Shown here: positions 21,727-38,947 of the stretch, piece after piece
Position numbering within the stretch: position 1 is the stretch's first letter
Layout: each line of letters starts with the position of its first letter
Assembly (NCBI GenBank): GCA_947473125.1
Contig: CANJDH010000026.1
Span: forward strand, 1-50,838
Origin: Burkholderiales bacterium
Lineage (GTDB): Bacteria; Pseudomonadota; Gammaproteobacteria; Burkholderiales; JAEUOS01
Reading direction: 5' to 3'
Length of the DNA: 50,838 bases
Made by a program: the position numbers and the translations under genes
Notes under the pieces: model-generated
Told to the model about the DNA's origin: nothing
Seen by the model: the letters and a program-made list of their open reading frames with translations, nothing else
Database searches by the model: none

Positions 21727-22377
21727 ATGACACTGCTCAAGATTGACGACATCCACGTATCGATTGCCTCGGTCGAGGTGTTGCGCGGCTTGTCACTGCA
21801 GGTCGGCGCTGGCGACATGGTCGGCCTGGTCGGGCGCAACGGCGCGGGCAAGACCAGCCTGATGCGTTCCGTGATGGGGCACTTGTCAGCGGCGCGCGGC
21901 ACGATCAGCTTTGACGGCGCCGACCTGTCGCGCGTGCCGCGCCACGGGCGCGCCGCCTTGGGCATCGGCTATATGCCGGAAGATCGCGGACTGGTGCCGG
22001 ACCTGACGGTCGAGGAAAACATCCTGGTGCCGGTGTGGGTGTCAAAGACGCTCAAGGCGCAGGATCGACTGGGGTTGGTTTATCAGGTGCTGCCCGAACT
22101 CAAAGAGATGCGCGACCGTCGTGCGATGCTGCTTTCCGGAGGCCAGCAGAAGCTGGTGGCGCTGGCGCGTGCGCTGGCGGTGGGGACGCGCCTGCTGCTG
22201 CTGGACGAACCGTTTGAAGGAGTTGCTCCGGCCTTGTCGCAGCGCCTTGCCGAAGTGATTGCCGGCTTGCGCAGCACCACGCTGTCCGTTCTCATCGCGC
22301 AGTCCGACCTCAACCATTCGCGCGCACTGATCCAACGTGAAGTGGTGATCGAGCGCGGCGCCAACCTTACGCCATGA
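21727..22377 (+). CDS. livF: ABC transporter ATPase (LivF family)
   Basis: This 216-residue ATPase has Walker A GRNGAGKT, a canonical LLSGGQQKLVALARAL signature, and Walker B LLLLDEPFEG. It is slightly shorter than E. coli LivF (237). The ATG at 21727 follows GAAGGTGGG and matches the family N-terminus MTLLKIDDIHV; an in-frame codon at 21694 would overlap livG. Its stop overlaps the start of the acyl-CoA synthetase by four bases. Confidence 0.9.
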   Translation: MTLLKIDDIHVSIASVEVLRGLSLQVGAGDMVGLVGRNGAGKTSLMRSVMGHLSAARGTISFDGADLSRVPRHGRAALGIGYMPEDRGLVPDLTVEENILVPVWVSKTLKAQDRLGLVYQVLPELKEMRDRRAMLLSGGQQKLVALARALAVGTRLLLLDEPFEGVAPALSQRLAEVIAGLRSTTLSVLIAQSDLNHSRALIQREVVIERGANLTP

Positions 22378-23969
22378 TCCACTGGTACGGTTACCCGCTC
22401 CCGGCGATGCGTCGCGAGTCCCACTTCGGCGATCGCATCGTGGCCTGTTTTGCGGAGCGGCCGCGAAGTATGCATGCGATGTTTGCGGCGACTGTCGCGA
22501 CGCACGGCGCCCGTGAAGCCATGGTGTTCGAGGGGCGACGCTGGTCATATCGCGAGCTCGACGATGTGTCTTCGCGCGTGGCGACCGGTTTTGCCGCATG
22601 CGGTATCAGGCAAGGCGACCGCGTGGTGTTGTTTCTGGGCAATCTGCCCGAATTCATGATGGCGCTGTACGCGCTGCAGCGATTGGGGGCAGTGGCGGTG
22701 CCGGTGAGCGTGCGCGAGCAGCGGCCGGGGCTGGAGTACATCGTCAACCAGTGCGGAGCCCGGGCGATCGTGTACGAGACGACGCTGGCCGAGCGTCTGC
22801 CCGACGCGCCGGCGGCGCCTGCTCTGGCACTGCGTCTCGCAGCAGGGGCCGAGTTCGACGCGCTGATCCGGAATGAACCCATGGCGACTGCAGCGCATGT
22901 TCACGAGGAAGACACGGCGCTGATCCTTTACACCTCGGGCACGACGGGCCGACCCAAAGGTGCCATGCTGACGCATTTCAACGTGGTGCATTCGGCCATG
23001 CATTTCGAGGCCTGCATGCGCTTGACCTGCCAGGACCGCTCGGCACTCGCGGTGCCGGCCAGCCACGTGACCGGTGTGGTGGCAGTGCTCGCGACAATGG
23101 CGCGCATCGGCGGCGCCGTGATCGTGATGCGCGAATTCAAGGCGTCGGCCTATATCCGCGAGGCGGCCGCCGAGCGGGTGACCTACACCGTGCTGGTGCC
23201 GGCCATGTACAACCTGATCTTGCTGCAGCCCGAGTTTGACCGGCATGATCTGTCGCACTGGCGTGTCGGTGGTTATGGCGGGGCGCCGATGCCGGTGACG
23301 ACCATTGATGCGCTCGCGCAGAAATTGCCCAGCCTGATCCTGACCAACGCCTATGGCGCAACCGAATCGACTTCGCCGGCGACGATCATGCCGGTGGGCG
23401 ATACGCGCGCGCACGTCGATACGGTCGGGGTGACGGTGCCGTGCGGCGACATTCGCATCATGGATGACGCGGGCTGCGAAATGCCGCGCGGCGAAACTGG
23501 CGAGATCTGGATCGGCGGGCCGATGATGGTCAAGGGATACTGGGACAACCCGGAGGCGACAGCCCGTGAATTCACCGGCGGCTACTGGCATTCGGGTGAC
23601 CTTGGTGCGATGGATGAAGCCGGCTACGTGCGCATTTTCGATCGCAAGAAAGACATGCTCAACCGCGGCGGCTTCAAGATCTACAGCGTGGAGGTGGAAA
23701 ACGTCCTGATGAGCATCGCCGGCGTGGTGGAAGCGGCCGTGGTCGGCGTGCCGTGCCCGGTGCTTGGTGAGCGGGTGCACGCGTTTGTCAACGCCCCGGC
23801 AACGGCGTCGATATCGCCTGCGCAGGTGCGTGCATTTTGCGCCGAGCGCCTCGCCGACTACAAGGTTCCCGAGGCGGTCACGATGGTTGACGCACCGCTG
23901 CCGCGCAATGCCAACGGCAAGCTGTTGAAGCGCGTGTTGCGCGAGCAGGTGGCTGACGGGGCGGCGTGA
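22374..23969 (+). CDS. Acyl-CoA synthetase (AMP-forming, class I adenylating enzyme)
   Basis: This 531-residue ligase activates a carboxylic acid as acyl-AMP and then acyl-CoA. Motifs in order are the P-loop LYTSGTTGRPKGAML, the YGATEST (A5) motif, the HSGDLGAMDEAGYVRIFDRKKDM (A7-A8) block, and the C-terminal lysine region PRNANGKLLKR. It is translationally coupled to livF (ATGA), so the imported ligand may be the acid it activates. Chain length or aromatic preference cannot be read. Its stop overlaps the next start (TGATG). Confidence 0.9.
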   Translation: MIHWYGYPLPAMRRESHFGDRIVACFAERPRSMHAMFAATVATHGAREAMVFEGRRWSYRELDDVSSRVATGFAACGIRQGDRVVLFLGNLPEFMMALYALQRLGAVAVPVSVREQRPGLEYIVNQCGARAIVYETTLAERLPDAPAAPALALRLAAGAEFDALIRNEPMATAAHVHEEDTALILYTSGTTGRPKGAMLTHFNVVHSAMHFEACMRLTCQDRSALAVPASHVTGVVAVLATMARIGGAVIVMREFKASAYIREAAAERVTYTVLVPAMYNLILLQPEFDRHDLSHWRVGGYGGAPMPVTTIDALAQKLPSLILTNAYGATESTSPATIMPVGDTRAHVDTVGVTVPCGDIRIMDDAGCEMPRGETGEIWIGGPMMVKGYWDNPEATAREFTGGYWHSGDLGAMDEAGYVRIFDRKKDMLNRGGFKIYSVEVENVLMSIAGVVEAAVVGVPCPVLGERVHAFVNAPATASISPAQVRAFCAERLADYKVPEAVTMVDAPLPRNANGKLLKRVLREQVADGAA

Positions 23970-24547
23970 TGGCACTGGATCTGGACCCGGCAGTGAGCAA
24001 GAAAATCACCAAATACGCGCTGATGGCCTACATGGTGATGTTTTTCATCTCGCCGGTGCAGCCGCTGGCGGGCTCGACCCTGATGGGACTTGCCGCGATC
24101 GTGCCGATCATGCTCGGGCCCAACCCGCTGCGCATCCTCGGCCTGATGGCGTTCGCGCTGGCCGGCTATTTTTTCTGGCCCGAGTTCCAGGAGTCGAAGA
24201 AACTGCCGGCCCGTCTGGCGGTGCGCGAAGCCCTGGCGCTGACCGACCCGCTCAAGGCGGCGGTGGCGGCGCACGTGGCGAAGGAAAAGCGACTGCCGGC
24301 CGAGGGCGAGCTGGCCTTGAAACTGCCGGCGAGCAGCCAGGCTGCAGTCGAGGCGGTTGCGTCGGGCGGCTTCCGGTTGCGCCTCAAGTTCGCGCCGCTG
24401 GAAGGGCGCACCCTGCGCGAAATGCCGCAACTTGCCGGCGACAAGCTCTCCTGGCAATGCGTCAGCGACGACATCGAGCAGAGTTACCTGCCGCGCCAGT
24501 GCCGCAATGCGGAAAACCTGCGCCGGGCGCGCGCCGGCGCCAAGTGA
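23969..24547 (+). CDS. Multi-spanning membrane protein with C-terminal type IV pilin-like domain
   Basis: This 192-residue protein has hydrophobic segments at about 16-29, 37-50 and 55-70. A soluble region follows that reads like the globular part of a type IV pilin. VREALALTDPLKAAVAAHVA (85-104) matches the second half of the pilin alpha-1 helix, followed by KEKRLP (pilins have G-WP here). GFRLRLKFAP and LEGRTLREMPQ match the beta-strands. LSWQC (C164) to LPRQC (C178) matches the disulfide-bounded loop ending LP-CR. There is no prepilin cleavage motif. The ATG at 23969 overlaps the ligase stop; a GTG one codon earlier is possible. It lies 80 bases before mshE, so a pilus-related role is likely but unproven. 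Confidence 0.75.
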   Translation: MALDLDPAVSKKITKYALMAYMVMFFISPVQPLAGSTLMGLAAIVPIMLGPNPLRILGLMAFALAGYFFWPEFQESKKLPARLAVREALALTDPLKAAVAAHVAKEKRLPAEGELALKLPASSQAAVEAVASGGFRLRLKFAPLEGRTLREMPQLAGDKLSWQCVSDDIEQSYLPRQCRNAENLRRARAGAK

Positions 24548-24627
24548 CGGCGCCGGCCGTCGATTGAGCCGGCGCGCCAAATTGCAATAGACTGTCGGGA
24601 TGATCCGGATACGGGGGTAGAACAACA

Positions 24628-26334
24628 GTGGCACGTCCCGAGAAAGTGCGGCTTGGCGACCTTCTGGTGCGCGAGAAGCTGATCACCGACGAGCAGTTGC
24701 AGTCTGCCCTGGAAGAACAGAAACGCAGCGGGCGCCGCCTCGGCCGAGTGCTGATCGACTCTGCAGTCGTTACCGAGGAGCAAATCGCAAACGCGCTGGC
24801 GGGCCAGTTTCGCGCGCCCTTCATCAACCTCAAGACCTTCAACATTGATCTCAAGACGGTGCCGCTGCTGTCGGAGACCCAGGCACGGCGCCTGCGCGCG
24901 ATGGCACTTGAGGAGACGCCGCTCGGGGTGCGCGTCGGCATGGCCGACCCGACCGACCTCGCCGCCTATGACGAAATCGTGCGCCTGGTCAAACAGGAGG
25001 TGCTGATCGCGGTGGTGACCGAATCGGCCCTGCTGGCAACCATTGACCGAGTCTACCGGCGCACCGGCGAAATCGACGGCCTGGCGCAACAGCTCCAGGC
25101 GGAGTTGTCGACCGGCAGCAGTGATTTCGGCGCTGACCTGGGCCTTTCGCCTGGCACCGAAGACGCACCGGTCGTCAAGTTGCTCCAGACCATTTTCGAG
25201 GATGCGATCGGCGCGCGCGCTTCCGACGTGCACATCGAGCCGCAGCAAAGCGGCCTGCAGATCCGATTGCGGATTGACGGCGTGCTGCATGCCCAGACCG
25301 AAGCGGACATCAAGATTGCCACGGCGCTGGCATTGCGCCTCAAGCTGATGGCCGGACTGGACATTTCCGAGAAGCGCCTGCCGCAGGACGGGCGCTTCAA
25401 CATCAAGGTGCGCGACAACCGCGTCGATGTCCGGATGTCGACCATGCCGACCCAATACGGCGAGTCGGTGGTGATGCGCCTGCTGGTCAACAACACTTCG
25501 CTTCTCAGCCTTGAACGGCTCGGCATTTCGCATGACATGCTGGTACGCATCCGTAGCATCCTGGCGAACCCGCATGGCATGCTGCTGGTGACCGGGCCGA
25601 CCGGCAGCGGCAAGACCACCACGCTGTACGCGGCGTTGAACGAACTCAATACCGCGAGCCGCAAGATCATCACTGTCGAAGACCCGATCGAATACCGCTT
25701 GCCCGGGATCAACCAGGTGCAGGTGCATGAAAAGATCGGGTTGACCTTCGACCGGGTACTGCGCTCCACCTTGCGCCAGGATCCGGACGTGCTCCTGATC
25801 GGCGAGATGCGCGACAAAGACACGGTGGAAACCGGCCTCAGGGCGGCGATGACCGGCCACCTGGTGCTGTCTACGCTGCACACCAACGATGCGGCCTCGA
25901 CCCCGATCCGCCTGATCGACATGGGCGCGCCAAGCTACATGGTGGCGATGTCGCTGCGCATGGTGCTGGCACAGCGTCTGGTGCGCGCGGTGTGCGACGT
26001 GTGCCGCGTCAAGTATGAGCCGAAACCGCAGGAGCGGGAATGGCTCGCATCGCACCTCAGCGACGACATCGACGTCAGCCAGTGCGTCCATGGCAGCGGC
26101 TGCAACCAGTGCAGTGGCACCGGCTACGTCGGGCGCACGGGCGTGTACGAACTGCTGGAAATGAACCAGCGCCTGGTCAAGGCGGCCAATCGTGGTGACG
26201 CCGAAGAATTTGCGCTGGCAGCGCGCGAGCAGATGCTCGGGCATACGCTGGGGCGGCATGCGGCGCGCCTGGCGATAACGGGAAAAACGACCGTGGAAGA
26301 GGCGATGAATGTCAGCTCGCAACTGGCCGACTGA
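24628..26334 (+). CDS. mshE: MSHA pilus extension ATPase MshE (GspE/PilB family)
   Basis: This 568-residue hexameric ATPase powers pilus assembly. The N-terminal MshEN region has the paired motifs RLGDLLV (8-14) and RRLGRVLI (36-43), which bind cyclic di-GMP in characterised homologues. The ATPase core shows Walker A GPTGSGKTT (323-331), Asp box ITVEDPIEY (348-356), Walker B LLIGEM (389-394), His box HLVLSTLHTN (411-420) and a zinc tetracysteine C456/C459/C492/C495. The start is a GTG (MARPEKVRLG). MshE opens the locus, with mshG 72 bases downstream. Confidence 0.93.
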   Translation: MARPEKVRLGDLLVREKLITDEQLQSALEEQKRSGRRLGRVLIDSAVVTEEQIANALAGQFRAPFINLKTFNIDLKTVPLLSETQARRLRAMALEETPLGVRVGMADPTDLAAYDEIVRLVKQEVLIAVVTESALLATIDRVYRRTGEIDGLAQQLQAELSTGSSDFGADLGLSPGTEDAPVVKLLQTIFEDAIGARASDVHIEPQQSGLQIRLRIDGVLHAQTEADIKIATALALRLKLMAGLDISEKRLPQDGRFNIKVRDNRVDVRMSTMPTQYGESVVMRLLVNNTSLLSLERLGISHDMLVRIRSILANPHGMLLVTGPTGSGKTTTLYAALNELNTASRKIITVEDPIEYRLPGINQVQVHEKIGLTFDRVLRSTLRQDPDVLLIGEMRDKDTVETGLRAAMTGHLVLSTLHTNDAASTPIRLIDMGAPSYMVAMSLRMVLAQRLVRAVCDVCRVKYEPKPQEREWLASHLSDDIDVSQCVHGSGCNQCSGTGYVGRTGVYELLEMNQRLVKAANRGDAEEFALAAREQMLGHTLGRHAARLAITGKTTVEEAMNVSSQLAD

Positions 26335-26352
26335 TCCGCCTCTGTGCGGATC
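26333..26352 (+). other. Hairpin across the mshE stop codon
   Basis: GATCCGC (26333-26339) pairs with GCGGATC (26346-26352) around a 6-base loop, starting within the mshE stop codon. No T-run follows. It may tune mshE/mshG expression or protect the transcript. Confidence 0.35.
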
Positions 26353-26406
26353 CATGGACTGCATGGGTTGTCGAGATTCGTTTAGCGTACCCGGAGGGGC
26401 GCGCTG

Positions 26407-27645
26407 ATGGCGTTGTTTGCCTACCGCGGTCGCAACGGCAGCGGCGACCTGGTCGAAGGGACCCAGGAAGGCGCGGATGCCGGCGAAGCGGCGGCCCTGC
26501 TGATGGCTGGCGGCGTCACGCCGGTTTCCATCGACGCGGTGTCGGGCGGCGCGGCGGGGGGGGGGCGTCCCTTTGGCGAGGCGTTTGCCGATTTTTTCCG
26601 GCCCAAGGTGACCGACGAAGAACTGATGCTGTTTTGCCGGCAGCTGTATGCGCTGCTCAAGTCGGGTGTGCCGATCATGCAGGGCCTGGCCGGGTTGCAA
26701 CAGTCTGCTACCAGCCCCACCTTTGGTGCCGTGATCCAGCGGGTGCGCGCCAGCCTCGATGCGGGGCACGAATTTTCGGCCGCGCTGGCACGCGAGGCGC
26801 CGGTGTTCTCCGAGTTTTTTGTCAACATGGCGAGGGTGGGTGAAACTTCCGGCAAGCTTGAGGAAGTGCTGCTGCGCATGTACGAGCACATCGAATTCAG
26901 CCTGTTCATGCGCAACCAGGTGAAATCGGCAACGCGCTATCCAATCTTCGTGATTGGTGCGATGGTGATCGCCATCGTGGTGATCAACCTGTTGGTGATC
27001 CCGGCGTTTGCCAACGTGTTCAAGAGCTTCAATGCGCCGCTGCCGCTGATGACGCAGATATTGATCGGTTTTTCCGACTTCATGGTCGCCTATTGGTGGT
27101 TGATGGGCGGTGCTGCGGTGGCGGCCGGGTTCATGTGGCATTCGTGGTTGTCGACGCCGGCCGGGCGCCTTGTCTGGGATGAATACAAGCTCAAGATCCC
27201 GATCGCCGGCAAGATCATCAGCAAGGCCACCCTGGCGCGCTTTGCGCGCAGCTTCGCGCTGGCCTCGCGCAGCGGCGTGCCGATCATCCAGGGCCTGTCG
27301 CTGGTGGCGCGCACCGTGGAAAATGCATTCATTGCCGAGCGCGTCGACAAGATGCGGGTAGGGGTCGAGCGCGGCGAGTCGGTGCTGCGCACCGCGATTG
27401 CCGCAAAGATCTTCACGCCGATGGTGCTGCAGATGGTGCAGGTGGGTGAGGAATCCGGCCAGCTCGACGCGATGATGGAGGATGTCGCGCAGATGTACCA
27501 GCGCGAAGTCGAATACGAGCTCAAGACGCTGTCGGCGCAGATCGAGCCGATCCTGATCGTGTTCCTGGGCGCGCTGGTGCTGGTTCTCGCGCTCGGCATC
27601 TTCCTGCCGATGTGGGACCTTGGCAAGGTCATGATCAAGCGGTGA
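26407..27645 (+). CDS. mshG: MSHA inner-membrane platform protein MshG (GspF/PilC family)
   Basis: This 412-residue protein has two GspF domains (about 70-195 and 275-398), the first opening FCRQLYALLKSGVPIMQGL and the second FARSFALASRSGVPIIQGL. Membrane segments lie near 176-200, 220-242 and 376-400. It is the platform on which MshE acts. GGAGGGG precedes the ATG. A run of ten G at 26556-26565, encoding the glycine stretch near residue 50, is a possible slippage site: loss or gain of one G would truncate the protein. Its stop overlaps the next start by four bases (GTGA). Confidence 0.94.
   Translation: MALFAYRGRNGSGDLVEGTQEGADAGEAAALLMAGGVTPVSIDAVSGGAAGGGRPFGEAFADFFRPKVTDEELMLFCRQLYALLKSGVPIMQGLAGLQQSATSPTFGAVIQRVRASLDAGHEFSAALAREAPVFSEFFVNMARVGETSGKLEEVLLRMYEHIEFSLFMRNQVKSATRYPIFVIGAMVIAIVVINLLVIPAFANVFKSFNAPLPLMTQILIGFSDFMVAYWWLMGGAAVAAGFMWHSWLSTPAGRLVWDEYKLKIPIAGKIISKATLARFARSFALASRSGVPIIQGLSLVARTVENAFIAERVDKMRVGVERGESVLRTAIAAKIFTPMVLQMVQVGEESGQLDAMMEDVAQMYQREVEYELKTLSAQIEPILIVFLGALVLVLALGIFLPMWDLGKVMIKR
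26556..26565 (+). repeat. Poly-G tract (10 G) inside mshG
   Basis: An uninterrupted run of ten G lies in the 5' part of mshG, between the short N-terminal region and the first GspF domain. In the given sequence the frame stays open through it. Confidence 0.95.
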
Positions 27646-28187
27646 GCAATCTCCAGCATTCCGTGGCATTTGTCACGCCGCTGCGCAACGAGCGTGGTTT
27701 CACTTTGTTCGAACTGATCGTGGTGATCGGAATCTTCAGCATTCTGGTCGGCTACCTGCTCGACAAGTCGTTCGACAACCTGGAACTGGGCGAGAAAGCC
27801 GCGATGGAAACCCAGCGATTGATGATGCGTGCAGGCATGGACCTGCAGATCGCGGGCCTGATCTCGTCGGGGCGCGAGCGCGACATTGCGAAGCTGGCGG
27901 GGCGCAACCCGGCCGACTGGCTGCGTGAAAAACCGGCCAACTACCTGGGGGCGTTCGCAGGGGCGCCGTCCGGATCGAATGCGGACAGCGGCTGGTACTT
28001 CGACAGCAGCGCCGGTGAACTGGTGTATCTACCGAAGCGTCACGCCAATCTCAAGCCGGATCGAAGCGGCCGGTTTCGCATTCGCTTCCATGTCACGCTG
28101 TCTGCGCAAGACGAATCTGCAGGGGGGGCGGTGCGAACCTCCGAATGGCCCCGTCTGGTGTCGGTGGAACCTTATGTCTGGTTCTGA
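27642..28187 (+). CDS. MshF-like prepilin-type protein
   Basis: This protein of about 181 residues has a prepilin cleavage motif, RG/FTLFELIVVIG, with the conserved glutamate at mature position 5 and a hydrophobic helix. The globular part contains NPADWLREKPANYLGAF and a WYFDSS-x-GELVYLP segment. That matches what I recall of MshF, and the position between mshG and the pilin gene is that of mshF in Vibrio. The GTG at 27642 overlaps the mshG stop; a GTG at 27663 would give a shorter leader. There is a run of seven G at 28132. It is probably a minor pseudopilin. The name is less certain than for its neighbours. Confidence 0.75.
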   Translation: MSNLQHSVAFVTPLRNERGFTLFELIVVIGIFSILVGYLLDKSFDNLELGEKAAMETQRLMMRAGMDLQIAGLISSGRERDIAKLAGRNPADWLREKPANYLGAFAGAPSGSNADSGWYFDSSAGELVYLPKRHANLKPDRSGRFRIRFHVTLSAQDESAGGAVRTSEWPRLVSVEPYVWF

Positions 28188-28350
28188 GTCTGTTTAGTTA
28201 TGGGTAGTTGACGCGCCGGCTCCGGCGGTTACGGACGGACGGCCAACTGCGGCAGATGGGCGGGCGAAACACAAGCTGACACTTGCAATTGTTAACAGAT
28301 GGGTGCGATAAACTAAGGCATACTTGATGCACTTGTCATACGGGAGTTGA
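28188..28350 (+). promoter_or_regulatory. Upstream region of the major pilin gene with weak promoter candidate
   Basis: This 163-base gap turns AT-rich in its second half. TTGCAA (28283-28288) or TTGTTA (28289-28294) and TAAACT (28309-28314) are the best -35 and -10 candidates, but spacing is 20 or 14 instead of 17. CGGGAG precedes the pilin ATG. A pilin-specific promoter here is plausible, since major pilin is needed in excess. Confidence 0.3.
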
Positions 28351-28800
28351 ATGATGGAAACGCAAAAAGGCTTTACCCTGATCGAACTGATCGTCGTGAT
28401 CGTGATTCTGGGAATTCTGGGTGCAATTGCGCTGCCCAAGTTTGTCGACGTCGGTACCGATGCACGCAGTGCAGTGGTCAAGGGCGTGGCAGGCGCGATG
28501 GCCGGCACTAACGCGATGATCTATTCGAAGGCGTCGCTCACGGCAGGTGCACTGGGCGCGGGCCCGACCAACGTCACCATCAACGGTGCCGCAGTGTCGG
28601 TCGTCAACGGTTTTGCAGCGACGACGGCCGCGATGCTACCCTTGCTGGACCTGAATCCGGCGACGGACTTCAACACCGTTACGGCCAACCAAATCCGCCA
28701 CGCGAACGCCAAGACGGTGGGCGCCACTTGCGGCGTCACCTACACGCCAGCCACGGCAACCTTGCCGCCGGTCTACACGGTGAACGTCACCACTTGCTAA
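28351..28800 (+). CDS. mshA: MSHA-type major pilin (MshA-like type IV prepilin)
   Basis: This 149-residue type IVa prepilin has a 7-residue leader and cleavage at KG/FTLIELIVVIVILGILGAIALPKF, the MshA/MshB hallmark including IALPKFVDVGTDAR. The mature protein ends with two cysteines (C in GATCGVTY and the C-terminal residue) that can close the pilin disulfide loop. The rest is Ala/Thr-rich and variable, as expected for an exposed pilin. An ATG one codon later is an alternative start. Vibrio has both mshB and mshA here; this locus has one such gene, so it probably supplies the fibre subunit. Confidence 0.88.
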   Translation: MMETQKGFTLIELIVVIVILGILGAIALPKFVDVGTDARSAVVKGVAGAMAGTNAMIYSKASLTAGALGAGPTNVTINGAAVSVVNGFAATTAAMLPLLDLNPATDFNTVTANQIRHANAKTVGATCGVTYTPATATLPPVYTVNVTTC

Positions 28801-28868
28801 GCGATCCGCATTCGGGCGCCGGCGAGAGCCTGCACCCGGATGGTCGGCAACCTGGCATGTCACGTTGT

Positions 28869-28883
28869 GCAACCGGGGGTTGC
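28869..28883 (+). other. Hairpin before mshC
   Basis: GCAACC (28869-28874) and GGTTGC (28878-28883) form a perfect 6-base-pair stem with a GGG loop. It lies 69 bases after the pilin stop and immediately before an in-frame ATG at 28886. It would hide a ribosome-binding site there and could separate pilin translation from that of the minor pilins. Confidence 0.45.
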
Positions 28884-28954
28884 CCATGGAACAGGGCGGG
28901 TGCGGAAAGCTAGTTCGATGCCGGGCATTGCCTGCCAGGACCTTGCCAGGCCGG

Positions 28955-29401
28955 GTGCCATGGCGCAACGGCCAAGTGGGTTTTACCCTCACCGAAATGA
29001 TTGTCGTGGTGATCCTTCTGGGGATTCTCGCGGCTACCGCAGCACCGCTGTTGTCCACGACGGTGATTGACGAGGTCCGGTTCTACAACGAAACCCAGGC
29101 TTTTTTGCGATACGCCCAGAAAACCGCGATTTCGCAGCGGCGCAATGTTTGCGTCACCTTCACCGCCAAGACCGTTACGGCGACCGTTTCCCCTGCCTTT
29201 GGTGGCGCCTGCAGCACGGCGCTAGACGGCCCCGGAGGCGTCAGCCCCTACGCCGCGACAGCACAAAACAATGCCGGCTTCACCGCCGTTCCGGCTGCGA
29301 TCACGTTTGACGCCAGCGGCGCACCGGACAATCCGCAGACACTCCTGCTGTCGGGCTCGAGCTCGATCGTGGTCGAGTCCGGGAGCGGCTATGTGCACTA
29401 G
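28955..29401 (+). CDS. mshC: Minor prepilin MshC
   Basis: This prepilin-like protein has cleavage motif VG/FTLTEMIVVVILLGILAATAAP and a GspH/FimT-type body (YNETQAFLRYAQKTAISQRRNVCV), matching MshC. The GTG at 28955 gives a normal 9-residue leader (MPWRNGQVG). An in-frame ATG at 28886 would give a 32-residue leader and sits beside a hairpin, so I prefer the GTG although its ribosome-binding site is weak. With the GTG the protein has 148 residues. It overlaps mshD by 11 bases. Such minor pilins prime or tip the fibre. Confidence 0.82.
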   Translation: MPWRNGQVGFTLTEMIVVVILLGILAATAAPLLSTTVIDEVRFYNETQAFLRYAQKTAISQRRNVCVTFTAKTVTATVSPAFGGACSTALDGPGGVSPYAATAQNNAGFTAVPAAITFDASGAPDNPQTLLLSGSSSIVVESGSGYVH

Positions 29402-29861
29402 GCGCCAGCGCGGCTTTTCCCTGGTCGAGCTGCTGGTGTCGATGATTGTCATCGGCGTCGGCTTGGCCGGGCTGATGAGCGTGATCCCGGTCGCGATTCG
29501 CACCAGCACCGACCCGCTGATCACCAAGCAGGCGCTGACCATCGCCGAGGGCATGCTCAGTGAAATTTCCGGCAAGCCCTTCGCCAACCCCACCAACGGC
29601 TTTGCCGGCGCCGCCACCCAGGCCAACCGCGCGCTGTTCGACGACGTGTCGGACTACAACGGCTACAGCAGCGTCGGGGCCTATGCGATCGCGGGGGGAG
29701 CGCCGATCGCGGGCCTGACCGGCTATAACGTGTCGGTCAGCGTCGCCGGGACCGCGTTGAGCGGCGCCACCGCGGTCGACAGCCTGCTGATCACGGTCAC
29801 GGTCACCTACCAGGGCGGCACCTCGGTGAGCGTGTCCGGATACCGGCTCAACTATGGCTAG
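29391..29861 (+). CDS. mshD: Minor prepilin MshD
   Basis: This 156-residue prepilin-like protein has leader MCTRRQRG and cleavage before FSLVELLVSMIVIGVGLAGLM. The body includes ITKQALTIAEGMLSEI, typical of PilV/MshD. The ATG at 29391 overlaps the mshC end by 11 bases. It overlaps mshO by eight. The position in mshC-D-O-P-Q order supports the name. Confidence 0.85.
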   Translation: MCTRRQRGFSLVELLVSMIVIGVGLAGLMSVIPVAIRTSTDPLITKQALTIAEGMLSEISGKPFANPTNGFAGAATQANRALFDDVSDYNGYSSVGAYAIAGGAPIAGLTGYNVSVSVAGTALSGATAVDSLLITVTVTYQGGTSVSVSGYRLNYG

Positions 29862-30741
29862 GCGCGCCCAGCGGGGCTTTTCGTTGCTTGAGGCCATCGT
29901 GGTCCTGGTGGTGCTGGGCATCATCGGGGCCAGCATCGGCATGTTCATCACCGGGCCGATGCGCAGCGCAGCCGACCTCGCCGCGCGCGCCGACCTCGCC
30001 GATTCCGCCGATACCGCGATCCGCCGCCTGGAGCGCGACGTGCGCCGCGCATTGCCCAACAGCCTGCGCGTGACCAGCGTGGGTTCGATCGTGTACCTGG
30101 AGTACCTGGAATTGCGCACCGCCGGGCGTTACCGGGTGGCGCCGAGCGGCGCCGCGACCGGCGCTTCCACCTGCCCCGATACCAACAGTGACGGCTTTGC
30201 CGATGAGGATATCCTCGATTTCACCGGCACCGACACCTGCTTTCGCTCCACCGGCGACCTGCCCAATTTCGCCAGCATCGTGGCCAACAACGACTATCTG
30301 GTGATCTACAACCTTGGCGCCGGCATTGCCGGCAGCAATGCCTACGAATTTGCCGGCACCGGCGGCAACAAGTCGCTGATCAGCGCCGCGTCGGTCGCCG
30401 CCGCCAGCGAGAACCGCATCAGCTTCGCTTCGATCGCGTTTCCGTTCGCGTCGCCGGGCAACCGCTTCCATGTGGTTTCCGGCCCGGTCACCTATTCCTG
30501 CGACCCGGTCGCCGGCCAGTTGCGGCGCCTGTCCGGATACGCGATCAGTACGGCGCAGGCGACGCCGCCCGGCGGCCCGACCGCCAACAGCCTGGTGGCA
30601 AGCAACATATCGGCTTGCGCCTTCACCTATGTGGCAACCGCCAATGAACGCGCCGGGGTGCTCGCCGCCACTCTGGGCATGACGCGCAACACCGAAACCA
30701 TCACCCTCTACCATGAGACGTCGATCAACAATGCGCCGTAA
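29854..30741 (+). CDS. mshO: Minor prepilin-like protein MshO
   Basis: This 295-residue protein has leader MARRAQRG and cleavage before FSLLEAIVVLVVLGIIGASIG. The PilW-like body has ADTAIRRLERDVRRALPNSLRV, the usual MshO block, and several cysteines (TCPDTN, DTCFRS, YSCDP, SACAF). It overlaps mshD and mshP. MshO is one of the larger minor subunits thought to cap the fibre with MshP and MshQ. Confidence 0.88.
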   Translation: MARRAQRGFSLLEAIVVLVVLGIIGASIGMFITGPMRSAADLAARADLADSADTAIRRLERDVRRALPNSLRVTSVGSIVYLEYLELRTAGRYRVAPSGAATGASTCPDTNSDGFADEDILDFTGTDTCFRSTGDLPNFASIVANNDYLVIYNLGAGIAGSNAYEFAGTGGNKSLISAASVAAASENRISFASIAFPFASPGNRFHVVSGPVTYSCDPVAGQLRRLSGYAISTAQATPPGGPTANSLVASNISACAFTYVATANERAGVLAATLGMTRNTETITLYHETSINNAP

Positions 30742-31180
30742 CCGCACTGCGGCCATTGCCGGGCGCCTGCGCCAGCGCGGCGTTTCGCTGGCGACGGCGA
30801 TTTTCGTGCTGCTGCTCCTGTCTGGCGTGGCGGCTTACATCGCGTCGCTCTCGGGCAGCCAGCATGCCGGCACCAGCATGGATGTCATCAGCTTGCGCGC
30901 CTACCAGGCGGCGCGTTCCGGCGCCGAATACGGCGTGTGGAACGCGGTCAAGAACAATGCCTGTCCGGCTTCGCAGACCCTGGCGGCGGGGTCGATGACG
31001 GGGTTGCTCTCGACCTATACGGTTGCCGTGGCCTGCACCACCACCAGCCATGTCGAGGCGGGCGTTACGATTCAGGCCTACAGCCTGACTGCCACTGCCT
31101 GCAACAGCGCGACTTGTCCTGCAGCCGCCCCTGGCGCAAACTACGTCGAACGGCAGGTCACAATGACGGCATGGAAATGA
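30731..31180 (+). CDS. mshP: MSHA biogenesis protein MshP (PilX-like)
   Basis: This 149-residue protein has an N-terminal RGVSLATAIFVLLLLSGVAAY segment in place of the standard prepilin motif, lacking the glutamate, as is usual for MshP/PilX proteins. AYQAARSGAEYGVWN follows, the conserved block of that family. The ATG at 30731 overlaps the mshO stop by 11 bases, and its own stop overlaps mshQ. It probably acts with MshO at the fibre tip. Confidence 0.85.
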   Translation: MRRNRTAAIAGRLRQRGVSLATAIFVLLLLSGVAAYIASLSGSQHAGTSMDVISLRAYQAARSGAEYGVWNAVKNNACPASQTLAAGSMTGLLSTYTVAVACTTTSHVEAGVTIQAYSLTATACNSATCPAAAPGANYVERQVTMTAWK

Positions 31181-34101
31181 ACCCGGTGAGGAAGCCCCTG
31201 TACTCGAACACGGCCTGGTGCGCCCGGCTTGGCAGCGCCCTGCGCCAGGTGTGGGGCGTGCTGCTGGTTTGCGCCCTGCTGCCGGCCCATGCCCAGATAA
31301 CCTATGTGGCCAATCGCACGGCCGCCGCCAATTCGAATGCGGTCACGATCACCAAGCCGGTCGGGGTTGCCACAAACGATCTGCTGATCACTACTCTGGG
31401 CCAACGGGGTCAAAGCGCCACCCCGTTTCTCCGGGTCACCCCTGCCGGCGCGCCGGCTGGATGGACGCGCATCACCGGCGTCAGCTCAGGCGCCAACCTC
31501 GGGATCGACGCCTACTGGAAGCTGGCCACCGCCACCGAGCCGGCTTCGTATACCTGGACCCTGAACCGGTCGGACCGAACCGTGGGCTCGATCGTCGTGT
31601 TCCGGGGCGTGGACACCACCATACCAGCCGTGGTCCAGGGGACGCAGCACAACGTCACCGCGTCGACCACCTATACGGCGCCGTCGATCAATACCGGTGC
31701 CGTTGCCAACACCATGCTGCTGGCCCTGTACGGCATCGCCGATGGTCGCCGCACGATCAACGGGGCCACCGGGATGACCCAGATCTTTTCTGCGTCCTCG
31801 AACAATGCAGCCTCGGGCCTCGCGCTCGGCGCCTCGTACGCAGCGCAGGCAGCGCCGGGCGCCACGGGGACGCGCCTGTCTGCGGGCAACACGTCCCTGG
31901 TCAATCTGGGCATGCTGGTTGCACTGCGCACCGCAACGCCGGTCGCCAGTTTCAGCGTCAATACCGGCGGCGCGACCGGCAATACCTGCCAGCCAAAAAA
32001 CATCACGATCACGGCGCGCGATGCGGGTGCCGGCACGCTCACTGGCTACGGCGGCACGATCAATCTCACCACCTCGACCGCCCATGGAAACTGGGCCAAG
32101 GTGACCGCGGCAGGCACGCTCACCGGCGGCGCCGCCAACAACGGTACGGCGAGTTACACCTTTGTCCCCGCCGACAACGGCGTGGTCAAGCTGGCACTGA
32201 GCAATACTTCGCCCGACGCGGCACTTACGGTCAACGTGGTCGACAGCCTGATCCCGGCGTCGAGCACCACGTCAACGGCGATTGCGTTCTCCGATAGTGC
32301 CTTCGTGTTTACGCTTGATCCGGTGCAGGTGGCGGCGCGCAACCAGGCCATCAGCGTGGCACTGTGGGCCAAGGACAGTGCCACGGCTACGACCTGTTCG
32401 ATCGTTACCTCCTACAGTGGTGCGAAAAACCTCAAGGCCTGGATTACCCGGGACGTTGCCGACCCGGGCGGTGCTGCGCCCGCCATTGGCGCACTCAGCC
32501 TGCCCAACGCGCAGCCCGGGGCGAACAACTTGAGCACGCTCACTTTCGCGAGCGGCAGCGCCAGCTTCAACCTGGCGAGCACCGACGTGGGCAAGTACGT
32601 CCTCAACCTACGCGACGATAGTTCCGCCTTCACCACGGTGCCGTTCGGTGCGTCGAGCAGCATCACTACCCGGCCGTTCGGTCTTGGATTCACCAACATC
32701 ATGAAGGGAGCGACGAGCAACCCGGGTGGCAGCGCCACAGCTGGCGGCAGCTTCATCGCGGCGGGCGACACCTTCCAGGCGACCGTGTCGGGCTTCCTCT
32801 GGGCGGCGGCCGACGACGTCAACAACGACGGCGTTCCCGATGCCGGCGCCAACATTACCGACAATGGCGTCACGCCATCCTACAAGTGGGCGACGACGCT
32901 GTCCGCAGTTGCGCCGTTCACGCCAGCGGCCGGCACGCTCGGCGCGCTTGGCGGTACCACTTCGATTCCCCAGGCGAGTTTCGCCGCCGGCACCACGACG
33001 GTGATCGACTTGACCTACTCCGAAGCCGGCAGTGTCACGTTGCAGGCGAGCGCCGCCAATTACCTGGGCACTGTGGGCGCCAACCTTGCTACCAGCAGCG
33101 GCGTGGTCGGCCGTTTCTTCGCAGACCATTTCGCGTTGCTGGCCGGTGCGTCAGTCAGCGCCGGTTGCGGGGCCTTCACTTACATGGACCAGGCGTTGCT
33201 AGGGCTCTCGTTCACCATCGAGGCGCAGTCGAAGGGCAACAGCCGCCTCAATAACTACCATACCGCCGCCAACAGCTTTGCGGTTGCCACGGTCAGCGTT
33301 CTGGCCGAGGATACGGCTGTCGGGAATGACGGCACCGACCTGAGCGTGCGGGTCTCGGGCGTGGTGGTGCCGGCGCCGGCCTGGGTTTCCGGCCGCTACA
33401 CCAGCACCACCGCCGCTGCCAGATTTCTCCGTGTCGCCAACCCGGACGGCCCCTATGACGCGTTGCAACTCGGGGTGCGGGTCGGCGGCGACCCGAACGG
33501 CGCGCTGCTCTCGGGAACCAACATGAATCCGGCCACTGCCGGCACCTGTAGCGGCGCTGGTTGCAACGGCGTAAAGCTCAACGCCGGTCTCGCCTCGGTC
33601 CGCTATGGCCGGATGCGTCTGGTTAACGGCACCAGTTCGCAATTGCTGCCGGCCACGCTCATTGCCGAGGCACAGTATTACCTCAAGTCGGCTGGCGGCT
33701 TTACCACCAATACCTCCGACGCGTGCACCTTGCTGACGGCAGCCAATTTCAGCCTCGGAAATGGCCAGGGCATTGCGACGGCGACCTTGCAGATCAACAT
33801 GGCGGCCGGCACGCTGACCAGCGGACGCAAGACCTTGACGGTATCCAGGGCCGGCAGCGCCACCCAGGGACCGGGCGGCACCACCAAGGGCAGCGTCGAC
33901 GTCGGGCTCAACCTCGGCTCGACCACCAGCGGTCAATATTGCAGCGGTTCATTTGCCCTCAACACCGGCGCTGGGCTGGCGCATTTGCGCGCGCGCTGGT
34001 GCGCCGTGCCAGGCACCTGGGATCGCGATCCGGTGGCGCGCGCCGTGTTTGGGGTGTATCCGGGGTCGGATACGCTCCTGATGCTGCGCGAAAATTATTG
34101 A
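31171..34101 (+). CDS. mshQ: Large secreted adhesin-like protein MshQ (DUF6701-type C-terminus)
   Basis: This protein of about 976 residues has a signal peptide (VWGVLLVCALLPAHAQ). Residues about 40-220 form a beta-rich domain (VTITKPVGVATNDLLI, SIVVFRGVDTT), then Ig-like Thr/Ser/Gly-rich segments. The C-terminal region is of the type annotated DUF6701 in MshQ (GRFFADHFALLAGASV, YGRMRLVNG, LIAEAQYYLKS, NTSDACTL). In Vibrio MshQ a LamG-like domain occurs instead of the N-terminal domain seen here. The ATG at 31171 or the ATG at 31177 (ATGA overlap with mshP) may be the start. It is the probable surface-exposed tip or adhesin of the pilus. Confidence 0.85.
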   Translation: MEMNPVRKPLYSNTAWCARLGSALRQVWGVLLVCALLPAHAQITYVANRTAAANSNAVTITKPVGVATNDLLITTLGQRGQSATPFLRVTPAGAPAGWTRITGVSSGANLGIDAYWKLATATEPASYTWTLNRSDRTVGSIVVFRGVDTTIPAVVQGTQHNVTASTTYTAPSINTGAVANTMLLALYGIADGRRTINGATGMTQIFSASSNNAASGLALGASYAAQAAPGATGTRLSAGNTSLVNLGMLVALRTATPVASFSVNTGGATGNTCQPKNITITARDAGAGTLTGYGGTINLTTSTAHGNWAKVTAAGTLTGGAANNGTASYTFVPADNGVVKLALSNTSPDAALTVNVVDSLIPASSTTSTAIAFSDSAFVFTLDPVQVAARNQAISVALWAKDSATATTCSIVTSYSGAKNLKAWITRDVADPGGAAPAIGALSLPNAQPGANNLSTLTFASGSASFNLASTDVGKYVLNLRDDSSAFTTVPFGASSSITTRPFGLGFTNIMKGATSNPGGSATAGGSFIAAGDTFQATVSGFLWAAADDVNNDGVPDAGANITDNGVTPSYKWATTLSAVAPFTPAAGTLGALGGTTSIPQASFAAGTTTVIDLTYSEAGSVTLQASAANYLGTVGANLATSSGVVGRFFADHFALLAGASVSAGCGAFTYMDQALLGLSFTIEAQSKGNSRLNNYHTAANSFAVATVSVLAEDTAVGNDGTDLSVRVSGVVVPAPAWVSGRYTSTTAAARFLRVANPDGPYDALQLGVRVGGDPNGALLSGTNMNPATAGTCSGAGCNGVKLNAGLASVRYGRMRLVNGTSSQLLPATLIAEAQYYLKSAGGFTTNTSDACTLLTAANFSLGNGQGIATATLQINMAAGTLTSGRKTLTVSRAGSATQGPGGTTKGSVDVGLNLGSTTSGQYCSGSFALNTGAGLAHLRARWCAVPGTWDRDPVARAVFGVYPGSDTLLMLRENY

Positions 34102-34151
34102 TGTTGTCGACCCTGGGAGCCCTCGGCACGGCACGTCTGGCGCGTTCAGGT

Positions 34152-34171
34152 GGTATTTTCCTGAGAATACC
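34152..34171 (+). terminator. Inverted repeat after mshQ
   Basis: GGTATT (34152-34157) and AATACC (34166-34171) pair around an 8-base centre that can extend the stem by two or three pairs. It lies 50 bases after the mshQ stop and before the promoter of the mshI unit. No T-run follows, so terminator function is uncertain. Confidence 0.35.
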
Positions 34172-34244
34172 CGGGCCGTTCAGTCAACCTGCTAGTCTCG
34201 TGTTTGGCGCGATGCGGATAGTTGATTAAATCTAGAAAAACGAT

Positions 34245-34273
34245 TTGACAACAATGGGTTATTGCTATATTTT
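34245..34273 (+). promoter_or_regulatory. Sigma-70-type promoter for mshI-mshN
   Basis: A perfect -35 TTGACA (34245-34250) is followed by TATTTT (34268-34273) at 17 bases, or the better -10 TATATT (34266-34271) at 15. The region is strikingly AT-rich for this window. It lies 27 bases before the mshI ATG. It probably starts a second transcript covering the secretion half of the locus. Confidence 0.65.
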
Positions 34274-34299
34274 GATTTGAATTATTGCTCGGCGTCTGC

Positions 34300-35235
34300 A
34301 TGAAACTTTCGTTTCGTCCACAAGCTCTCTCCGGCTGGCTCGCCTTGCGCCAGCGGGGCGACGAAATTGATGCCGCCCACATTGAGCGGCGCGGGAGTCG
34401 ATTGCAGGTTTCCCTGTGCGAAACCTATCGCGCCGGCGGCGACATCATTGGTGTGCTGTCACGCCTGCGCCGCGACAAGGGTTGGCGGCGCTACCGTTGC
34501 ACCATGCTCCTCGGCGGCGATCAGTACCAGCTCCATAGCTTCGACGCTCCCAAGGTGCCTGCACAAGAATTGAAGAGCGCGGCACGCTGGCGCGTCAAGG
34601 ACTTGATCGATTACCCGCTGGACGACGCGATGGTCGACATTCTCGACATCCCGGTCGACGCCAATGCCCGCAACCACGCAGTGTTTGCGGTGTCGGCACG
34701 CAATGAAGTTCTGCAGCGTACCGTGCGACGCTGCCAGGATGCGGGCATTGCGCTGGCCGCGATCGACATTCCGGAAGTTGCCCAGCGCAACGTCTCGGCA
34801 CTGTTCGAGGAGGACAATCGCGGCCTGGCGTTCCTGGCTTTTGACGAATCCGGCGGGCTCTTGACCGTGACCTTTCGCGGCGAACTCTATCTGACGCGGC
34901 GCATCGACATTCCGCTGGCAAAACTGCTCGACAAAGACCCCGAATCGCGCGCCCAGTTGCACGAGCGGATTGCGCTTGAGGTGCAGCGCTCGCTGGACCA
35001 TTTTGATCGGCAATACAGCTTCATCACCATCTCGCGCCTGATGCTGGCACCGCTTCCGGCACAAACAGGGTTGGCCGAAAGCCTGGCGGCGAACATCTAT
35101 TTGCGCGTCGATCTGGCCGACATCTGCGAAGCGCTCGATTGCCAGGGCATTCCGGAGCTGTCGGACCCTGCACGGCAAGGCCTGTGTTTGCAGATTTTGG
35201 GCGCGGCACTGCGCGACGAGAAGGCCGCAGTGTGA
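34300..35235 (+). CDS. mshI: MshI (PilM-like actin-fold pilus assembly protein)
   Basis: This 311-residue cytoplasmic protein resembles MshI/PilM. It has an N-terminal actin-like fold start (GWLALRQRGDEIDAAHI), ELKSAARWRVKDLIDYPLDDAMVD, and LEVQRSLDHFDRQYSFI. It would bind the N-terminus of the PilN-like partner at the inner membrane. The ATG at 34300 was chosen over an in-frame TTG at 34285. Its stop overlaps the next start (GTGA). Confidence 0.88.
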   Translation: MKLSFRPQALSGWLALRQRGDEIDAAHIERRGSRLQVSLCETYRAGGDIIGVLSRLRRDKGWRRYRCTMLLGGDQYQLHSFDAPKVPAQELKSAARWRVKDLIDYPLDDAMVDILDIPVDANARNHAVFAVSARNEVLQRTVRRCQDAGIALAAIDIPEVAQRNVSALFEEDNRGLAFLAFDESGGLLTVTFRGELYLTRRIDIPLAKLLDKDPESRAQLHERIALEVQRSLDHFDRQYSFITISRLMLAPLPAQTGLAESLAANIYLRVDLADICEALDCQGIPELSDPARQGLCLQILGAALRDEKAAV

Positions 35236-35921
35236 CGCAGCAGATCAATCTCTACCACCCGGGTTTCCTGCGCCGCAACCCGTTCCTGGAGCCGGGCGCC
35301 CTGCTGGGCTATGCACTTGCGCTGCTGCTGCTGCTGGCTTTGGGCGCGTCCGCTGTGGCGCGCAGCCAGCGAGTAAGCCTTGCGGAAGAGGCGGCGGCGA
35401 TCGAGGCGCACATCAAGGGCCAACAGGAGCAAAGCGTTGTGCTGGCCAGCCAGAAGGCGGCGCGGGTGAGGGATCAGGCGCTGGAAGCCGAGGTGGGTCG
35501 CCTCGAAACGCTGGTGCGCCGGCGTGGCGAAAGCCTGGCCGTGATCAGCGGCGGTGCACTCGGTAGTACCAACGGCTTTTCGGCGCACATGCGTGCTCTG
35601 GCCCGGCAGTCGGTGGGCGGGCTCTGGCTTACCGGGGTTTCGATTGCCAATGGCGGCAGCGAAGTGACCCTGCGCGGACGCATGCTCCATGCCGACCTGC
35701 TGCCGCGTTTTCTCGGGCGTCTCGGGACGGAAAAATCGTTCGAGGGCCGCGGCTTCCGGTCGCTGGCGATTGATCAGCCCAAACCGGCTGAAGCGGCTTC
35801 GCCTGTTGCGACTGCGCCTGCAGCAGTCCAAGCGGCCCCAGCCTACCTGATGTTCGAAATCGCCACGCTTGATGTGGCGAGCCGCGGGGCTGGCGCTGCT
35901 GCCGGGGGAGTGTCCAAGTGA
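35232..35921 (+). CDS. PilN-like inner-membrane alignment protein of the MSHA system
   Basis: This 229-residue protein begins with the PilN signature QINLYHPGFLRRNPF. One membrane helix follows (about 22-43, ALALLLLLALGASAVA), then a periplasmic coiled coil (45-100) and a ferredoxin-like domain (GFSAHMRALARQSVGGLWLTGVSI). The QINLY segment is the part that binds PilM-type proteins, here MshI. The GTG start overlaps the mshI stop; no other start keeps the QINLY motif near the N-terminus. It overlaps mshJ. Confidence 0.85.
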   Translation: MTQQINLYHPGFLRRNPFLEPGALLGYALALLLLLALGASAVARSQRVSLAEEAAAIEAHIKGQQEQSVVLASQKAARVRDQALEAEVGRLETLVRRRGESLAVISGGALGSTNGFSAHMRALARQSVGGLWLTGVSIANGGSEVTLRGRMLHADLLPRFLGRLGTEKSFEGRGFRSLAIDQPKPAEAASPVATAPAAVQAAPAYLMFEIATLDVASRGAGAAAGGVSK

Positions 35922-36652: not shown

Positions 36653-37056
36653 GGGTGAACAGGGCCAACCGCCGACTACTGCAGTCGGTAACATGGGCAT
36701 TGCTGTCGGTGGCGGTGGGCATCACACTCGCTGCTGGCGAGTCGGTGCTCCCCGACCCGACACGGCCGCCGGACGGCATGATTGGTTTGCCCGCCACGGG
36801 CGAGCCTGCCGTGCCAGCGGAGCCGAGGCTGCAATCGGTATTGATCGGCAGCGCCGGGCGAAGCGCTATCATTGACGGACAGCGATACAAGGTGGGAGAT
36901 AGAGTGGGCGATGCGCGTCTGGTCAAGATATCCGAGAATGAAGTGATACTGACCAATTCGGGTGGGCGGCAAACCATGCGTCTGTTCCCGGCGGTCAAGA
37001 AAACGTCGCCAGAGCGGGCCACCCCCGCACGCCGCGGCGCATCAAGGAATCCCTGA
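36649..37056 (+). CDS. mshK: MshK (PilP-like)
   Basis: This 135-residue protein has an N-terminal hydrophobic segment, the conserved LPDPTRPP, then LQSVLIGSAGRSAIIDGQRYKVGDRVGDARLVKI and EVILTNSGG, the MshK/PilP pattern. It probably links the inner-membrane PilN/O-like complex to the MshL secretin. The ATG at 36649 overlaps the mshJ stop (ATGA); upstream in-frame codons lie inside mshJ. Confidence 0.87.
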   Translation: MRVNRANRRLLQSVTWALLSVAVGITLAAGESVLPDPTRPPDGMIGLPATGEPAVPAEPRLQSVLIGSAGRSAIIDGQRYKVGDRVGDARLVKISENEVILTNSGGRQTMRLFPAVKKTSPERATPARRGASRNP

Positions 37057-37057
37057 C

Positions 37058-38944
37058 GTGAACAAATCAGCTGTCCTGTCGGTGGTCTGCTGCATCGCTT
37101 TTGCCGGATGCGTCAGCAAGACCATCGGGCCCGACAATACCCTTGATCGTATTTCCAGCGAGATTCGCAAAGCCACGGAGCCGCGCCAGGTGCAGCAACA
37201 ACCGCCGCCCGAAGCGGTGCGGCAGGCCTTGCTCCCGCCGGTGGTGGTGGATACCCCCAGTGCCGGCCAGACGTCGGAGCCCCGCTTCAACCTGGTCGTC
37301 AACAACCTGCCGATCAATCAGGTGCTGATGGCCATGGTGTCCGACACCCGCTATAGCATGCTCGCGCATCCCGATGTACGCGAGCCGATTACCATCAATT
37401 TGAAGGACGTGACCATGCGCGAAGCGCTGGACACGTTGCGTGAACTCTACGGTTACGACTACAAGATTCAGGGCAACCGGATTTTCGTGCAGGCCCCGGG
37501 GCTGCAAACGCGCGTGTTTCAGGTCAACTACCTGACCGGCCGGCGCGTCGGCCGTGCCGATGTACGGGTGACGTCGGGTTCGATCCAGACGCCGTCTTTC
37601 AGTGCCCCGGCACAGATATCGACGACGCCGGGTGTGGCGCCGCTGGCGGCCGCGGGCGGTTCCACGCCGCAGTCGGTCGAGAGCAGCCGGATTACCACCA
37701 CCTCCGACAACGACTACTGGCGCGACCTGATCGATGCGCTTAACGCGATACTGGGCATCAGTGTGGCGCAGGTGGGCGGGGGCGCGCCGGCCGCACCGAA
37801 TGCGCCCAACGCGCTGCCCCAGATCGAGCGTCGCGCGGTGGTGGTCAATCCGCAGGCCGGCGTGGTGGTGGTGCGCGGGTATCCGGCCGACATGCGCAAT
37901 GTCGAGGCCTTCCTCAAGGCGATGTCGCTGGTGGTGGAGCGCCAGGTGATGCTCGAAGCCAAGATCATCGAAGTTTCGCTCAGTGACGGGTTTCAGGCGG
38001 GGATCAACTGGGGCACATTCAGTGCCGGCAACAACAGCCGTTTCAGTGCCGGCGTGCTTACGCCCGGATCCACCCTGCGCACCGACGGCGGGATGACCAC
38101 GCCGACCACGCGTGCGCCGGACGGTTCGATCCTGGCCGGCGCGGCGTTTAGCTCGGACCCGGCACGGCCGATGGTGACGTCACCCGATCCGCTTGGCGGC
38201 CTGAGCGCCGGCACCGCCAGCAGCATCATGCAACTGGGCGCCAACGCCGCCGGCGGGGTCTTCGGCCTGGCACTGCAGACCAGCAGTTTTGCGGCACTGC
38301 TCAACTTCCTCGAAACCCACGGCAAGGTCCAGGTGCTGTCGAGCCCGCGCATTGCCACCATGAACAACCAGAAGGCGGTTCTCAAGGTCGGTACCGACGA
38401 ATTCTTTGTCACCAACGTCACGACCACGACCACCACGTCGGGCACCAGCACGATCGTCTCACCGACGATCACCACCCAGCCGTTTTTCTCCGGCATCGCA
38501 CTTGACGTGACGCCGCAAATTTCCGAAGACAACCGCATTACGCTGCACATCCATCCGTCGGTGAGCCTGGTGACCGACAAGGCCAAGACCATCAACCTGG
38601 GGACGCTGGGCAATTTCACGGTGCCGCTGGCGTCGAGCAGCGTCAACGAAAGCGACACCATCGTGCGCGTCGACGACGGCAGCATCGTCGCCATCGGCGG
38701 GCTGATGCGCCAGGCGCAAAATGCGGTGCGCTCGCAGGTGCCGGGAATCGGTGACCTGCCCGGCATCGGCGATTTGTTCCGCAACCGGGCGGACGGATTG
38801 TCGAAGAGTGAACTGGTGATCCTCCTTAAGACCTCGGTGATTCATGGAGAGTCGTCGTGGCAGCAGCAGGCGCAGGAGGTCGGTGACCGGGTTCAGGCGA
38901 ATCAGCGCGCGCCGGCGCCGGCGCCGCGCAAGCCGGGGGAGTAA
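37058..38944 (+). CDS. mshL: Outer-membrane secretin MshL
   Basis: This 628-residue secretin is probably lipid-anchored: the lipobox AFAGC ends at residue 17. A secretin N-domain follows (PRFNLVVNNLPINQVLMAMV through EALDTLRELYGYDYKI, about 69-133), then a second N-domain (VVNPQAGVVVVRGYPADM). The beta-barrel core has VQVLSSPRIATMNNQKAVLKVG and a C-terminal SELVILLKTSVI. It forms the gated outer-membrane channel for the pilus. The start is a GTG one base after the mshK stop. Confidence 0.92.
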   Translation: MNKSAVLSVVCCIAFAGCVSKTIGPDNTLDRISSEIRKATEPRQVQQQPPPEAVRQALLPPVVVDTPSAGQTSEPRFNLVVNNLPINQVLMAMVSDTRYSMLAHPDVREPITINLKDVTMREALDTLRELYGYDYKIQGNRIFVQAPGLQTRVFQVNYLTGRRVGRADVRVTSGSIQTPSFSAPAQISTTPGVAPLAAAGGSTPQSVESSRITTTSDNDYWRDLIDALNAILGISVAQVGGGAPAAPNAPNALPQIERRAVVVNPQAGVVVVRGYPADMRNVEAFLKAMSLVVERQVMLEAKIIEVSLSDGFQAGINWGTFSAGNNSRFSAGVLTPGSTLRTDGGMTTPTTRAPDGSILAGAAFSSDPARPMVTSPDPLGGLSAGTASSIMQLGANAAGGVFGLALQTSSFAALLNFLETHGKVQVLSSPRIATMNNQKAVLKVGTDEFFVTNVTTTTTTSGTSTIVSPTITTQPFFSGIALDVTPQISEDNRITLHIHPSVSLVTDKAKTINLGTLGNFTVPLASSSVNESDTIVRVDDGSIVAIGGLMRQAQNAVRSQVPGIGDLPGIGDLFRNRADGLSKSELVILLKTSVIHGESSWQQQAQEVGDRVQANQRAPAPAPRKPGE

Positions 38945-38947
38945 GCC

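Follow-up and report, generated by a model that had tools for sequence, protein, structure and literature searches.

The question raised by this locus is what a protein that combines a type IV pilin head with several membrane helices could be doing in the inner membrane, immediately before the genes of the MSHA pilus. The gene concerned, P0001, lies in a window (the whole stretch of DNA analyzed, 50,838 nucleotides from a Burkholderiales bacterium) together with a branched-chain amino-acid transporter cluster and the MSHA locus (Table 1). The start of P0001 shares one base with the stop of the acyl-CoA synthetase gene (TGATG), whereas its end is 80 bp before mshE on the same strand, and its codon-position GC (0.68/0.46/0.86) is like that of the neighbouring genes. 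A promoter scan of positions 22200-24800 found none, a result which carries little weight in a GC-rich genome. The MSHA locus is genuine, because mshE carries the MshEN and c-di-GMP motifs and MshL scores above its cut-off; it is complete (24628-41010) and apparently absent from the four other genomes of the family. The mshM of this locus also matched, below the cut-off, a model of an XrtA/PEP-CTERM-associated ATPase.

Table 1. Coordinates of P0001, its parts, and the neighbouring genes in the window.
Feature	Position	Strand	Basis or remark
P0001, tethered pilin-domain protein, 192 aa	23969..24547	+	ATG 23969, stop 24547, frame intact
N-terminal hydrophobic region of P0001, residues 16-70, probably three membrane helices	24014..24178	+	Hydropathy, models
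Type IV pilin globular domain of P0001, residues 84-179	24218..24505	+	PF00114, DNA-level PF00114 match, fold
C-terminal disulfide loop of P0001, C164 to C178 (WQC ... LPRQCR)	24458..24505	+	Sequence, invariant columns
Acyl-CoA synthetase (long-chain fatty-acid CoA ligase type)	22374..23969	+	Closes branched-chain amino-acid ABC transporter cluster; transporter named from sequence
mshE, MSHA extension ATPase	24628..26334	+	MshEN and c-di-GMP motif
mshG, GspF/PilC-like platform protein	26407..27645	+	
MshA-like prepilin	28351..28800	+	Normal N_methyl signal, without PF00114 match
mshL, secretin	36962..38944	+	TIGR02519, 256.8 bits, cut-off 250.2

The C-terminal half of P0001 is a type IV pilin domain. 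The protein has a single Pfam match, PF00114 (Pilin), which scores 38.8 bits (cut-off 22; E 2e-9). Its two cysteines, C164 and C178, correspond to those of the pilin disulfide, and an alignment of 30 pilin domains shows no variation at W162, C164, P175, or C178. When this alignment was given to AlphaFold2, the model had a mean pLDDT of 82.5 (85-96 over residues 81-180) and showed a long alpha1 with a break (residues 71-106), four strands (125-129, 135-139, 148-156, and 159-165), and the C-terminal loop, in agreement with the pilin arrangement in which alpha1C packs against an antiparallel sheet. Type IV pilins were the first ten Foldseek matches of the model, and its best-scoring solved relatives in a structural aligner were all type IVa pilins, many of them with Z of 10-11 (e.g., K122-4 pilin, 11.3; Francisella tularensis PilE, 10.7; Neisseria gonorrhoeae pilin, 10.7; Burkholderia cenocepacia PilA, 10.1), whereas the MshA pilus structure reached a Z of only 3.1. 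As the alignment given to AlphaFold2 included pilins, the modelled fold and the sequence match do not count as independent evidence; the single-sequence model was poor (mean pLDDT 50) and did not recover the pilin fold. An earlier sequence-only reading had recognized both a pilin domain in this half and its W-x-C to LP-x-CR disulfide loop, and the profile search and the structure comparison of residues 81-180 agree with it on both counts. The genome's own PilA aligns with P0001 in the C-terminal loop (E 5e-6), whereas its own MshA has neither meaningful similarity to P0001 nor a PF00114 match; the head of P0001 is PilA-type, not MshA-type. Elsewhere in the genome, four nearly identical PilA-type prepilin genes stand in tandem (G000:C32:28891-31409).

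Pilins are usually treated as filament subunits and are defined by their signal motif. Neither a prepilin motif nor a class III signal was found in P0001 by a regular-expression search, the prepilin N-terminus model TIGR02532 matches the MSHA pilins of the window and not P0001, and no NCBIfam model matches the protein even at E 10. The third helix ends in FFWPEFQ, comparable to the AIPAYQ of pilins (FWPEFQ for IPAYQ), and is probably the pilin's own alpha1N; with P71 taken as pilin Pro22, positions -1, 1, and 5, which in pilins are G, F, and E, are occupied by L, G, and L. A polymerizable type IV pilin has a single N-terminal membrane helix, whereas in P0001 one or more extra helices precede alpha1. 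The absence of a prepilin cleavage site, as first read from the letters, is thus confirmed, and with this absence and a multi-helix anchor P0001 would not be expected to polymerize like a normal pilin, as had also been supposed. The count of membrane helices is less settled: hydropathy and the low-confidence single-sequence model (helices at 7-27, 32-49, and 53-77) suggest about three, the number proposed earlier, but the alignment-based model shows only two (7-27 and 53-68) and leaves residues 28-52 unresolved. Lysines 11, 12, and 15 precede the first helix and R55 (in LGPNPLRI) is between the second and the third, a placement which under the positive-inside rule would put the head in the periplasm, where the cysteine pair would also require it to be.

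A pilin head without the prepilin signal, behind an unrelated membrane part, recurs in about two dozen genomes from many proteobacteria. The architectures confirmed by Pfam are GYF_2-RDD-Pilin, TM2-Pilin, RDD-Pilin, DUF2628-Pilin, and DUF4190-Pilin; in other frames the anchor consists of three to four helices, a single helix, or a large N-terminal domain that Pfam does not recognize. When P0001 was searched against 399 genomes of the order, 18 gave matches, and reading of the frames revealed the match to be a signal-less protein in 12 of these, the window's own genome counted; the class sample supplied additional tethered relatives. Among about 100 PF00114 matches in 90 genomes of the order, only six were without the signal (two in the window's genome and one each in G001, G013, G041, and G059), a rough share obtained by sorting by motif and by eye. 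With a signal-less background of about 6% against 12 of 18 matched genomes, P0001 is nearer to the tethered set than to ordinary pilins. The Gly-Phe-Glu signature at -1, 1, and 5 was missing in every tethered relative that could be aligned there. The second tethered pilin of the genome (G000:C28:3763-4449, L300, minus strand) has TM2 followed by Pilin and is located amid Sel1-repeat genes. L272 (G041:C1:4017552-4018830) has a pilin head, one membrane helix, and a long coiled-coil spacer, without a prepilin signal. L236, a pilin-like gene of G043 with one helix, was dropped from the tethered set because its G-ISKVE is a normal divergent prepilin signal. No close orthologue of P0001 was found in the other genomes of the family, the 399 from the order, or 369 from the class, nor by a peptide-pattern scan of genome contigs, which detects close relatives only. 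The domain tree was weakly resolved, although the tethered head of G001 and the PilA of the window's genome were joined with 99/96 support; label counts on the tree gave at least two changes for both the ordinary and the 4TM groups, which is compatible with a repeated origin within the limits set by long branches.

Comparison with known systems indicates how such a protein might work. In two-hybrid assays TfpY, a protein with three membrane helices and a periplasmic domain, gave signals with PilA, PilE, and FimU, the weak ones of which are to be read with caution according to the authors; TfpY is absent from sheared pili and has been proposed as a helper of the start of assembly (PMC11841053). 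P0001 would resemble TfpY, TfpX, and TfpZ (FimB-like) in layout, with about three putative N-terminal helices and then a C-terminal domain predicted to be periplasmic; TfpY-type proteins are not filament subunits, and P0001 is likewise proposed to act on pilins. However, TfpY-like heads are described as forming a three-stranded mixed sheet that includes a beta2-alpha-beta3 motif and as containing no recognized domain (PMC11841053), whereas the head of P0001 is a true PF00114 domain and P0001 matches no NCBIfam model. Membership of P0001 in the TfpX/TfpY/TfpZ family was rejected, as it has no NF041437 match and the genome's TfpZ-like protein has no meaningful similarity to it. The TfpZ-like protein itself, encoded in the pil region about 8 kb from pilM, is what NF041437 picks up (G000:C63:14155-14880, L334; 145 bits, E 4e-42, under the cut-off of 200). 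With the type IVa pilins PilA and PilE (PF00114), P0001 shares the head fold and the disulfide loop, but it is without the class III signal peptide, Phe1, and Glu5 and has extra N-terminal helices, by which the known processing and polymerization would be impossible. MshA and the MSHA minor pilins are genomic neighbours of P0001, yet they have the normal N_methyl signal, no PF00114, and no meaningful similarity to it. In modular pilins, of which PilB of Streptococcus sanguinis is an example, the pilin part is N-terminal with an intact signal and carries an extra module to the filament (PMC8179133). P0001 also joins a pilin module to another module, as modular pilins do in many architectures, but the order is reversed and the IPR012902-type signal motif is lost.

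Our preferred reading, to which we give a probability of only about 0.4, is that P0001 is an inner-membrane mimic of a pilin, tethered and non-polymerizable, that acts on type IVa pilins in a TfpY/FimB-like role. Two extra N-terminal helices would have been fused before a nearly complete type IVa (PilA-type) pilin, with the loss of the leader, the cleavage site, and Glu5. The head would be in the periplasm, where its disulfide would be formed; prepilin peptidase would be unable to release the protein, and the anchor would block its extraction into the filament. The pilin-pilin contact surfaces could still let P0001 touch pilins or the platform protein, and it may act on the pool of unassembled pilins as a chaperone, a priming adapter, or a competitive brake, by which assembly could be either aided or restrained. 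A docking or regulatory role is plausible by comparison with TfpY-like proteins, whose layout is the same and for which pilin binding has experimental support (PMC11841053). The partner would likelier be a PilA-type pilus than MSHA.

Gene neighbourhoods bear on whether the role is specific to MSHA. P0001 is at the start of the MSHA locus, close to mshE and on its strand, and could be a factor that docks or regulates MshA and is expressed with mshE. We regard this as distinctly unlikely, since none of 109 other mshE loci (29 examined over 1.5 kb of upstream sequence and 80 over up to 6 kb) had a pilin-like frame upstream of mshE, the usual neighbours in the 29 being trmL, gpsA, and secA. The PilA-type head, in a genome whose own MshA has no PF00114 match, also speaks against it; the special tie to MSHA that the position of the gene had suggested is not supported. 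The four other genomes of the family had no close mshE (best about 38% identity) and no P0001 match. Tethered relatives were mostly amid housekeeping genes and away from pilus genes, which comes close to refuting a link of the homologues to pilus genes, but in G152 (L121 5130-7227) and its congener G249 (L302), RDD-pilins 62% identical to each other are located directly after, and apparently overlapping, pilU and before dapE. PilM was over the cut-off in 25 of the 26 genomes with tethered pilins (G737 included on frame length alone), the exception being a 64% complete genome, against 165 of 229 class-sample genomes (one-sided Fisher p 0.003), a difference for which genome size is a confounder, and so is pilin presence itself, as pilin domains in general track with pili. 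These two observations keep a general link to pili alive.

The same scatter among unrelated genes also fits a different history, in which the pilin head now serves as a general-purpose periplasmic module (e.g., for binding a ligand or a partner) in a membrane protein linked to the transport and acyl-CoA neighbours, with no pilus role. The start codon of P0001 is coupled to the acyl-CoA synthetase gene and not to a pilus gene, which is a point against a pilus role, and RDD, TM2, and DUF2628 anchors are not known as pilus parts. Nevertheless, P0001 retains its disulfide loop and pilin core, and the PilM count and the two pilU-linked cases argue against it, which makes such re-use somewhat unlikely in our estimate. 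It is unlikely that P0001 is a degenerating pilin paralogue, functionless though its frame is still open. The lack of an orthologue and the long branch in the domain tree would suit this, as would the broken or truncated pilin copies that seem to be present in the family (G001:C61 and G002:C345); against it are the intact frame, whose codon GC pattern is that of the genome, the retention of all key pilin residues, and the existence of a second tethered pilin in the genome and of many elsewhere.

The tethered pilin mimic that we prefer may belong to a wider set. It is possible, though doubtful, that there are convergent reverse modular pilins, in which the signal was lost and unrelated modules (TM2, RDD, DUF2628, DUF4190, or three to four helices) came to stand in front, through a repeated conversion of pilins into proteins that sense or gate assembly from the inner membrane. 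The modular pilins already described have an intact signal and begin with the pilin. The reversed, signal-less order was not found in the open-licence papers searched, which contained nothing relevant on TM2, RDD, or multi-pass pilins, although Pfam architecture listings may show it. The published modular-pilin survey demanded an N-terminal IPR012902 motif and would thus not have counted tethered pilins (PMC8179133); any search that starts at the N-terminal signal motif would miss them by design. If the design is recurrent, pilin heads on other membrane modules would mean that the pilin fold also serves as a part outside the filament. Tethered pilins would then be natural non-polymerizable probes of the poorly understood early steps of pilus assembly, from the recognition of pilins in the membrane through their priming to their delivery to the motor.
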